Assembly (NCBI GenBank): GCA_007121535.1
Contig: SKKK01000548.1
Location: forward strand, 1 to 33,608
Direction: 5' to 3'
From: Planctomycetaceae bacterium
GTDB taxonomy: Bacteria; Planctomycetota; Planctomycetia; Pirellulales; Pirellulaceae
Length of the DNA stretch: 33,608 nt
Part shown: positions 1-15,885 of the stretch, piece by piece
Numbering within the stretch: position 1 is the stretch's first letter
Layout of the letters: each line of letters starts with the position of its first letter
Position numbers and translations under genes: made by a program
Notes under the pieces: generated by a model
What the model was told of the DNA's origin: nothing
What the model saw: the letters and a program-made list of their open reading frames with translations, nothing else
Database searches by the model: none

Positions 1-20
1 CGGCCACCGGTCGTGTGGGT

Positions 21-67
21 CCCGAGCGCCGAGCGGGAGCCGGCCGGGCCCCCGCTCGGCGCTCGGG
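21..67. repeat. GC-rich perfect inverted repeat (hairpin) upstream of purH
   Basis: A 17-bp perfect inverted repeat has arms at 21-37 and 51-67 around a 13-nt GC-rich spacer. A short outer pairing (TGTGG at 14-18 with CCACA at 71-75) may extend it. No T-run follows on either strand close to the stem, so a classical intrinsic terminator is not obvious. It may end transcription of a gene left of the window or be an intergenic palindromic repeat. The gene to its left is not visible, so its role is undecided. Confidence 0.6.
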
Positions 68-93
68 GGGCCACATGGGCTGAATAGGCGTAC

Positions 94-12382: not shown

Positions 12383-12411
12383 TTGACATGTCGACCGTTT
12401 TCGTGTTTACT
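12383..12411 (+). promoter_or_regulatory. Sigma70-type promoter of the 12.4-12.8 kb transcript
   Basis: A perfect -35 box TTGACA (12383-12388) is separated by exactly 17 bp from TTTACT (12406-12411, 4 of 6 matches). It predicts a start near 12418. It is the best consensus promoter I found in the window, and no convincing gene follows it for 420 bp. Confidence 0.6.
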
Positions 12412-12417
12412 AAAGAT

Positions 12418-12796
12418 GGTTGGCCGCAGTCTGGAAGCCAGGACGGCGGCGCAATTCCCGAACGCTGCTTTCGTGAAAGGGCTGCTAAGACCCTGGAGAT
12501 GCGGCGGCGTGGTGGGTGGTGGCAAATCGAGTTGCGGCCCACCATCGATCCGTCGCATCAAAATGGAGATATCGGCCGTTTCTACGAGCTGAGGAGGGTC
12601 GAAAAAGCCGTATGCCCTGAAAGCAGCCTGGGTTTGACTCGCTGGTGATGAGCCTTCCTGACTACCCTTCGTTCGAGGAGTGCGAATGGCTGCCGTTGTG
12701 GCTGTTTCCGAAGAGAGCGAGGTGACTCGTTTTCACCACGGGAGCTGCCACCAACCAGACTGGAGGGAGCAGGGTGAATTCCTGCTCCCTTTTTCT
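12418..12796 (+). ncRNA. Unidentified structured RNA or long regulatory leader
   Basis: The transcript predicted from the upstream promoter runs to an intrinsic terminator without a convincing protein gene. Possible closing stem: CAGTCTGG (12427-12434) with CCAGACTG (12755-12762). Internal hairpins include GGTGGG (12511-12516) with CCCACC (12538-12543), enclosing GCAA/TTGC, and GGTGA/TCACC at 12721-12737. I looked for the hallmarks of RNase P RNA, tmRNA, SRP RNA and common riboswitches (cobalamin, TPP, glycine, lysine) and did not find them. It is either a free small RNA of about 380 nt or a conditionally terminated leader of the gene at 12841, on the same strand 44 bp past the hairpin. There is no other gene between 12214 and 12840. 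Confidence 0.5.
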
Positions 12797-12798
12797 TT
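12764..12798 (+). terminator. Strong intrinsic terminator
   Basis: A 10-bp perfect stem (12764-12773 with 12781-12790) encloses a 7-nt loop and is followed by a T-rich run (12790-12798, broken by one C). It ends the structured transcript and lies just before the ribosome-binding site of the next gene, so it could also act as an attenuator. Confidence 0.85.
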
Positions 12799-12840: not shown

Positions 12841-14133
12841 ATGCCTCATCCCATGACTCGGCGACAATGGTTATCGACCACAACACAGGCTGCTTGTGCG
12901 GCTGCGGCCGCAGGAGTCTGGAATCCTTCCGCTGCTGCGGGAACGGCGGATGGTTATCCGCCACAGCGCACCATCACTCGCGGTCCGAAACATCATTGGT
13001 TCGCCTATTACGACAAGTTGCAATTCGATCCCTCGGGACGGTACTGCCTGGGGATGCAGGTGGACTTCGAGCATCGCAGTCCGCGACCGGATGATGTGAT
13101 CCGGATCGGGATGATCGATTTGCAGGACGAAGATCGCTGGATCGACTTGGACCAGAGTCGTGCCTGGGGTTGGCAACAGGGATGCATGTTGCAGTGGATT
13201 CCCGGTTCGGATCGGAAGATCCTGTGGAACGATCGAAAGGACGACCGGTTCGTCTGTCATGTGTTGGACGTTCGGTCCGGTCAGCGGCAAACGATCGGGC
13301 ATCCGATCTACTGCTTGAGTCCCGATGGGCGGACCGCGTTTTCCGCCGACTTTCGCCGCATCAATGACACGCGCCCCGGCTATGGGTATGTCGGCTTGCC
13401 GGACCCGCACGCCGACCAATGGGCTCCGGCCGAATCGGGCATCTATCGCGTCGATTTGCAGACGGGTCAGCAGCAGATGATCGTCTCGCTGGCAGAAGCC
13501 GCTGCGTTTCCGCTGCCGACGGAGAATCCCTACTTCGCGGCCGAAGACATGCCCCGAGCCAAGCATTGGTTCAACCATCTGCTGGTCAATCCCGATGGCA
13601 CTCGATTGATCTTCCTGCATCGCTGGCGACCCGAGGGGGCCAGGCGGTGGTTGACTCGCATGTTCACGTGTGCTCCGGATGGCTCGGAACTGCGTTGCGT
13701 CATCAATACGGGGATGGCCTCGCATTTCATTTGGCGCGATCCGGATCATATCTTGGTCTGGGCGCGTCACGCTTCCCACGGAGACAAGTTCTATCTGGTC
13801 GAAGATCGAGACGACGGAGACTTCGAAGTCGTGGCACCGGATGTGATGACCCGCGACGGGCACTGTTCGTACCTGCCCGACCTGGACTGGATCGTCAACG
13901 ACACCTACCCGGACGCGAATCGGGAACAGACCGTCTACCTGTACCACGTTCCGACCGAACGCCGCATCGAATTAGGGCGTTTCTACACGCCGCCCGAGTA
14001 CACGGGGGAATGGCGAGTGGACACGCATCCACGGCACAGCCCGGACGGGAAGATGATCGTGATTGATACCGCGCATACCAGCACCGGGCGGCAAATGCAT
14101 CTGATCGATATCAGCGAAATCGTCGCCGGGTAA
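12841..14133 (+). CDS. Tat-exported beta-propeller protein, TolB / oligogalacturonate-lyase-like
   Basis: The N-terminus MPHPMTRRQWLSTTTQAAC is a twin-arginine signal (RRQWL) with an Ala-rich core, so the folded protein is exported. The mature part has repeated blade-like motifs: DPSGRYCLGM, SPDGRTAFSAD, NPDGTRLIFLHRW, APDGSELRC and SPDGKMIVIDTAH, as in TolB-type propellers. HHWFAYYDKLQFD and the tryptophan-rich blades resemble proteins annotated as oligogalacturonate lyase, but I cannot confirm the catalytic site. It has 430 residues. The frame is open to a TTG at 12823, but the ATG at 12841 has GGAG 8 nt upstream and gives a compact Tat signal. The strong terminator 44 bp upstream may regulate it. 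Confidence 0.75.
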   Translation: MPHPMTRRQWLSTTTQAACAAAAAGVWNPSAAAGTADGYPPQRTITRGPKHHWFAYYDKLQFDPSGRYCLGMQVDFEHRSPRPDDVIRIGMIDLQDEDRWIDLDQSRAWGWQQGCMLQWIPGSDRKILWNDRKDDRFVCHVLDVRSGQRQTIGHPIYCLSPDGRTAFSADFRRINDTRPGYGYVGLPDPHADQWAPAESGIYRVDLQTGQQQMIVSLAEAAAFPLPTENPYFAAEDMPRAKHWFNHLLVNPDGTRLIFLHRWRPEGARRWLTRMFTCAPDGSELRCVINTGMASHFIWRDPDHILVWARHASHGDKFYLVEDRDDGDFEVVAPDVMTRDGHCSYLPDLDWIVNDTYPDANREQTVYLYHVPTERRIELGRFYTPPEYTGEWRVDTHPRHSPDGKMIVIDTAHTSTGRQMHLIDISEIVAG

Positions 14134-14292: not shown

Positions 14293-15885
14293 CTACGGCG
14301 TCACCTGCTCGACGGGCAGCGGGGGCTGTTGGTCGTCCGTTTCCGTCGCTTCGGCTTCGATACGATTGACCGCGTTCAAGATGGCTTTGACAGCGGCTTC
14401 CACCGTATCGGTCGAAACACCGCGACCTCGGATCATCGCGCCATTGTGTTCGATCTCCATGGTGACCTCGCCTTGTGCGTCACGGCCGACCGTAGCGCTT
14501 CGAGCTTCGAAGCCTTTGCAACTGAGCCGCTTGTCGATGATTTTCTCGACCGCGCAGAAGGCCGCGTCGATCGGTCCATCGCCATCGGTCACCTCGGCGA
14601 CGTGGTCTTGGCCGTTGTGCCGCAAGCACAGCTTGGCCCGCGGTGGCTGGCCGCTGCAGCAATGAGCCTCGAACGACACCAAGGTCCATTCTTCCTCCAC
14701 CGGAGAGTGCAGAAGTTGTTCGATCAAGGCCACGACGTCGCCGTCGTAAATCTCTTTCTTCTTGTCGGCCAGCTTTTTGAACTCTTCGAACACCGCCTGA
14801 AGCTGTTCGCCGGTCAACTGGAAACCGAGCGTCTTGGCGCGTTCGTTCAACGCGGCGCGGCCGCTGTGCTTGCCCAGCACCAAGTCGGTATGCGTAAACC
14901 CGACATCTTCGGGACGCATGATCTCGTAAGTCGAAGGTTCTTTCAGCATGCCGTCCTGGTGAATTCCGGCTTCGTGAGCGAAAGCGTTGCGCCCCACGAT
15001 CGCCTTGTTGCGTTGGACCTGGATCCCGGTCACCGACGCGACCAGACGGCTGGTGGGCACCAGACGCTGGGTCTTGATCCGGGTTTGGCACCCGAAGTAG
15101 TCGCTTCGAGTGCGCAACGCCATGACGATCTCTTCCAGAGAACAATTGCCAGCTCGCTCGCCGATCCCGTTGATCGTGCATTCGACCTGCCCGGCGCCTT
15201 GCTCGATGGCCGCCAGACTGTTGGCAACGGCCAATCCCAAGTCGTCATGGCAATGGACGCTGATCACGGCTTGATCCATGTTCGGCACTCGATTCCGGAG
15301 CATGGCGATGGTTTGTCCCATGTGCGTCGGGACGGCATAACCCACCGTATCGGGAATGTTGATCGTCGTGGCTCCCGCCTCGATGGCCGCTTCGACGACT
15401 TGGCACAAAAAGTCATGTTCGGTCCGCGCAGCATCTTCGGGAGAAAACTCGATGTCGTCGCAGTAACTCGCCGCACGCCGCACGCCCTCGACCGCCCGCT
15501 GGATGATCTCGTCCGTGGACATCCGCAGCTTGAATTCGCGGTGGATCGCGCTGGTGGCCAGGAAGACGTGAATTCGCGGGCGTTCGGCCAGCTTCAACGC
15601 CTCCCAAGCTCGATCGATATCCGCCGGATTGCATCGAGCCAGTCCGCACACCGTCGTCCCTCGGACGATCCGCGAGATCTCACGCACGGCTTCGAAATCA
15701 CCGGGCGAAGCGATCGGGAAGCCGGCCTCGATGATGTCGACTGCCAACGCCTCCAGGGCCTGAGCGATCTTCAGTTTCTCGTCCAAATTCATGCTCGCGC
15801 CCGGCGATTGCTCGCCGTCGCGAAGAGTCGTATCAAAAATTTTGATCTGTTTCATTTCGTTCGTTGTCACGTGGATCGGTGACAT
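14293..15885 (-). CDS. leuA: 2-isopropylmalate synthase LeuA
   Basis: LeuA condenses acetyl-CoA with 2-oxoisovalerate, the committed step of leucine synthesis. The protein shows [19 protein letters not shown] near the N-terminus (metal- and substrate-binding signature), [10 protein letters not shown] with the metal-ligand HxH, and [14 protein letters not shown]. The HDPS-type TIM barrel covers about residues 10-280, followed by the linker region with HEAGIHQDG and the C-terminal leucine-sensing LeuA dimer domain (about 400-530). It has 530 residues, normal for the family. The start is at 15885 or, 10 codons later, 15855; neither has a strong ribosome site. The 5' leader carries a leucine-rich peptide and a terminator, so attenuation by leucyl-tRNA supply is likely, besides enzyme feedback. 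Confidence 0.96.

Follow-up and report, generated by a model that had tools for sequence, protein, structure and literature searches.

The window, a stretch of 33,608 nucleotides, carries tyrA-, larC-, leuA- and dapA-like genes around a locus at 12383-12797 that is predicted to be a free-standing gene for a folded non-coding RNA of about 380 nt. Its neighbours encode a sugar-permease-like membrane protein (named by sequence) and a secreted protein, neither of which matches Pfam. The locus has its own promoter and terminator, a fold that is better than chance and a structure that is conserved in a homolog (genome G026), which together mark a free-standing structured RNA gene. At the very contig end, window 1-70 holds a G+C-rich inverted repeat; this is probably a dispersed repeat at which the assembly broke off. 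The features of the RNA gene are:

12383..12411, + strand: sigma-70-like promoter TTGACA-N17-TTTACT; single match in the window, with a homolog equivalent at equal spacing
12418..12797, + strand: predicted transcript of the structured RNA gene, based on fold z-score, G026 homolog and lack of an Rfam match
12427..12434, + strand: 5' strand of the closing stem, CAGUCUGG; pairs with 12755-12762
12459..12472, + strand: conserved segment CGAACGCUGCUUUC; 13 of 14 bases identical in G026
12479..12494, + strand: conserved segment GGGCUGCUAAGACCCU; 15 of 16 bases identical in G026
12498..12559, + strand: long variable hairpin arm, from the fold; differs in length and sequence in G026
12570..12592, + strand: second core hairpin; pairs common to both RNAs, with a G-U to A-U change
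12595..12627, + strand: conserved 3' core AGGGUCGAAAAAGCCGUAUGCCCUGAAAGCAGC; GGGGUCGGAAGCCGGAGGCCCUGAAAGCAGU in the homolog
12628..12668, + strand: hairpin arm between core and outer rod, from the fold; equivalent hairpin in G026
12703..12746, + strand: 3' hairpin arm (GCGAGGUGACUCG...), from the fold; G026 equivalent with several double changes
12755..12762, + strand: 3' strand of the closing stem, CCAGACUG; pairs with 12427-12434
12762..12797, + strand: intrinsic terminator, a stem followed by a U-run, from the terminator scan; G026 terminator at the equivalent place

Transcription signals

The promoter consists of TTGACA (12383-12388), a 17-nt spacer and TTTACT (12406-12411). The more general pattern TTGACW-N17-NNTACT occurs once in the 33.6-kb window, compared to 0.01 expected occurrences, and once in the 9 kb around the homolog. 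A strict promoter scan did not report the site at 12383-12411 because the -10 box lacks an A at position 2. The 5' end of the transcript was placed about 7 nt past the -10 box. At the 3' end, the terminator stem (12762-12792) was scored at 13 pairs with a T-run after it. Since 2 terminator-like sites are expected by chance in the region, the weight of the terminator rests on the one found at the equivalent place in the homolog. Judged from the sequence of both members, a housekeeping-type promoter would drive transcription and an intrinsic terminator would end it.

The original prediction described the same promoter, a terminator with a 10-bp stem and T-run, and about 380 nt without a credible gene. 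The promoter was borne out, and so was the terminator, except that its stem is longer than the 10 bp proposed. The lack of a credible gene agrees with our finding that no open reading frame in the stretch has a counterpart around the homolog.

Fold and conservation in a second genus

The + strand folds at -185 kcal/mol, compared to -145 +/- 6.1 kcal/mol for dinucleotide shuffles (z -6.6). Across 102 window segments of 341 nt scored as a control, z averaged -0.23 with a minimum of -4.4, and the two lowest values were those of the two strands of the RNA gene segment. When measured as a 341-nt segment with 20 shuffles, the + strand of the RNA gene (z -4.4) is tied with a segment antisense to leuA, so fold stability by itself is strong and not unique. 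The second lowest + strand z among the controls (-4.4) is that of window 14620-14960, antisense to the leuA-like gene. The G026 homolog folds at z -3.9.

Searching relatives with blastn gave two collinear pieces on one G026 contig, which led to the complete homolog; other blastn pieces in relatives were mostly chance matches. G026 belongs to the Pirellulaceae and to a genus other than that of the window genome, and the matching contig in GTDB release 220 is JADHUC010000026.1 ('Pirellulaceae bacterium isolate BS150m-G36'). The homolog and the window gene have one order of parts, i.e., promoter, closing stem, core, variable arms and own terminator. The homolog's promoter reads TTGACT-N17-CATACT, and the distance from the -10 box to the closing stem is exactly 15 nt in both members. 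The genes next to the homolog are unrelated to those in the window, and no neighbour gene is common to both.

An 8-bp closing pair between 12427-12434 and 12755-12762 had been proposed originally. The pairing is exact, and it is kept in the homolog (UAGUCCGG/CCGGACUA) with two double changes (C-G to U-A and U-A to C-G). An unconstrained fold of the window sequence shows GGUUGG/CCAACC (12418-12423/12751-12756) and not the 8-bp pair, but the latter is preferred because the homolog conserves it. When the closing stem and core helices are held, both RNAs have a common layout in which the closing stem is followed by an outer rod ending in GAAC/GUUC (12460-12463 with 12671-12674). The core helices follow in the order GCUGCUUUC/GAAAGCAGC (12464-12472 with 12619-12627), GGGC/GCCC (the latter at 12614-12617), GCU/AGC (12606-12608) and GACCCU/AGGGUC (12595-12600), separated by internal loops. 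The remainder consists of two core arms, one more hairpin, the 3' hairpin and the terminator.

Sequence changes within the core are compatible with this layout. In the helices of 12459-12472, G-C to G-U and C-G to U-G changes preserve the pairs in G026, and the last core pair changes from U-A to C-G, a double change. The 5' strands of the last three core helices all lie in GGGCUGCUAAGACCCU, where U and AA sit in internal loops; these loops, with U opposite CNNNN and AA opposite GRA, are conserved. The near-invariant core comprises CGAACGCUGYUUUC (CGAACGCUG-YUUUC), GGGCUGCUAAGACCC, GGGUCGRA, AGCC and GCCCUGAAAGCAG. Invariant bases cluster in the internal loops and core helices, and the arms vary in length.

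A structure-aware alignment of the two RNAs contains 63 shared pairs, of which 47 are unchanged, 6 changed on one side and 10 changed on both. With the terminator excluded and the core pairs imposed in both sequences, there are 51 shared pairs, compared to 33 +/- 4 (maximum 44) in 80 shuffles of the homolog's variable stretches, and 8 double changes, compared to 3.9 +/- 1.5 (maximum 9) in these trials. In a plain alignment of the two sequences, pairing at the variable positions does not exceed that of slid controls. Covariation between two members is thin, and two sequences cannot prove every helix.

The G026 contig has additional features near the homolog. The space separating the RNA terminator from the following gene holds a 37-nt inverted repeat (92%; L020 4736-4825) that resembles a dispersed intergenic repeat. 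A short way past the RNA, a 10-mer at L020 4829-4838 is exactly complementary to the conserved UCGAACGCUG; this is probably chance, as the window has no equivalent.

Distribution and absence from Rfam

The distribution of the RNA was studied with R1, a 152-position covariance model of the core from two members, for which the window sequence was seeded without a few variable-arm and loop bases to help the alignment. Overlapping samples of 396 genomes of the order, 40 nearest relatives (laxer filters), 241 genomes of the family and 392 of the phylum were searched. Scores of 104 and 168 bits were obtained for the two founding members, and all other matches are at or below 22 bits. No third convincing member was found among the family, order and phylum genomes, where rare means rare at the sensitivity of R1, as a two-sequence model misses distant relatives. 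Weak matches of 13-22 bits (G339, G132, G509, G427, G513, G016, G042, G009, G038, G019 and G048) were rejected because core pairs were broken or core motifs missing, and several were clearly in coding sequence. Apart from JADHUC010000026.1, the GTDB pattern scan pointed to 12 contigs, all of which lack the RNA (best score 11 bits), and the pattern GGGCTGCTAAGACCC with one mismatch gave counts near those of the reversed-pattern control, which points to chance.

The nucleotide search among planctomycetes, also suggested with the original prediction, gave one clear relative, G026. The gene is present in a single copy in the window genome, and its closest congeneric relatives (G001-G003) have no match to the RNA, which is thus dispensable or acquired. 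This rarity suggests an accessory rather than a housekeeping role.

Covariance models from Rfam 15 gave no match in the whole window at gathering thresholds, in agreement with the original observation that hallmarks of RNase P RNA, tmRNA, SRP RNA and common riboswitches are missing. At E<=10, the best match in the stretch is that of the terminator hairpin to mir-9201 (22.5 bits vs. a cut-off of 95.5). Rfam matches in the G026 homolog are trivial only, and ARAGORN found neither tRNA nor tmRNA in the window. As the homolog has an equivalent structure and Rfam gives no match, the planctomycete RNA appears to represent a new, rare family of free-standing structured RNA absent from Rfam. The original prediction of a new small RNA, structured and outside the known classes, is supported by the homolog in another genus and by the housekeeping RNAs found elsewhere in the genome (see below). 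It was to be abandoned in the case of a known family or no conservation; neither was found, and conservation is very narrow (2 genomes).

Proposed action and comparison with known RNAs

We favor, with slightly better than even confidence, a non-coding RNA gene with its own promoter and intrinsic terminator, giving a closed multi-armed RNA that acts in trans via the conserved core. Based on the two-sequence comparison, the RNA would fold into the 8-bp closing stem, an outer rod, a near-invariant core helix with internal loops, and a junction with variable arms. The stable RNA would act in trans, with the conserved core as a putative binding site for a protein or small partner and the variable arms as spacers. 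It would most likely act as a protein-binding RNA, and we put its mechanism at about even odds. A more far-reaching and tentative suggestion, which we regard as doubtful, is that the RNA represents a novel kind of RNA machine in Planctomycetota, either an RNP scaffold or an RNA-only assembly, whose conserved internal-loop core is unlike that of known families.

Most base-pairing regulatory RNAs are encoded by free-standing genes with a promoter and an intrinsic terminator, and this single-copy gene has the same organization. An exposed loop might then pair with mRNAs in trans, with the fold serving mainly for stability. We consider this rather unlikely, since helices and small internal loops hold most of the conserved bases, with no long single-stranded seed, and a closed multi-arm RNA of 380 nt would be large for the class. 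The placement of the invariant bases is also the reason why a core serving as a binding site is preferred.

An origin from a mobile or satellite element, for example as a phage-borne RNA or the guide RNA of an insertion sequence, would explain the scattered occurrence, i.e., presence in two genera and absence from the nearest relatives. In G001, of the same genus, homology reaches no further than window 12276, shortly before the gene. However, the RNA has no match in pattern scans of viral contigs or in blastn of phage and plasmid records, those window neighbours that Pfam could name belong to ordinary metabolism, and no transposase, reverse transcriptase or Cas-like gene was found among the neighbours scanned, which makes a mobile origin quite unlikely. 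In G001, about 126 nt of contig follow the transporter gene, and the G002 flank carries other sequence, so that neither genome shows an empty site, and gain, loss and rearrangement of the RNA locus appear indistinguishable in this comparison.

The downstream gene, on the same strand, has its start codon at 12841, about 44 nt past the end of the terminator, as might be expected if the RNA were a cis-acting leader (riboswitch or attenuator) of that gene and 12762-12797 a regulatory terminator. However, the gene that follows the homolog is unrelated and lies about 300 nt away, behind the further 37-nt inverted repeat, so the two members have no conserved linkage to one downstream gene, and no riboswitch family matches. 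In addition, the downstream gene is widespread in relatives, and its orthologs there are not preceded by the RNA (R1 with filters off), which argues against a cis-acting leader. We conclude that the RNA is very probably not a leader of the neighbouring gene.

That the locus holds RNase P RNA, tmRNA or 6S RNA, i.e., a housekeeping RNA, in diverged form can practically be dismissed despite the similar length of RNase P RNA and tmRNA, since RNase P RNA (RF00010; C385:4240-4655, 293 bits), tmRNA (RF00023; C379, 171 bits) and a 6S RNA candidate (RF00013; C332, 48.1 bits, just above the cut-off) are each found elsewhere in the window genome above the Rfam cut-off, and the stretch has no match to them even at E 10. 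The 6S candidates in this genus (G000:C332:1266-1486, L077; G001, L078; G002, L079) score 43-48 bits at an Rfam cut-off of 46.4, and three other family members yielded no 6S RNA, so the model for this RNA seems to under-detect Pirellulaceae. The 78% complete G026 genome (BS150m-G36) has no RNase P RNA match, most likely due to its incompleteness.

The planctomycete RNA adds a family of structured RNA missing from Rfam in a phylum with little-charted RNA biology. Because its conserved core is both short and clearly delimited, a metagenome search or a core pull-down would quickly show how broad the family is and what binds to it.

Compared to known systems, the RNA resembles 6S RNA (RF00013) in being a free-standing, putatively trans-acting RNA with a closing stem and rod, but 6S RNA is about 190 nt with a single bubble, and the planctomycete RNA has no RF00013 match. 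Class A RNase P RNA (RF00010) is similar in length, multi-arm fold and closing stem; however, the RF00010 model does not match. The Rhodopirellula-1 motif is a reported candidate structured RNA from Planctomycetes and Proteobacteria, scored as possibly cis-regulatory and without a listed Rfam accession (PMC2864571), and it is set beside the planctomycete RNA by description only. OLE, ROOL and GOLLD are orphan large structured bacterial RNAs, and ROOL and GOLLD have no settled function (PMC12286853). Like these, the planctomycete RNA is free-standing, highly structured and non-coding, whereas it is shorter (about 380 nt; GOLLD is often >800 nt), lacks an Rfam match to them, has no phage or tRNA-island association and has two known members. 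Without being a member of any of these families, the planctomycete RNA appears, by analogy, to be of the same broad kind as the orphan structured bacterial RNAs OLE, ROOL and GOLLD.
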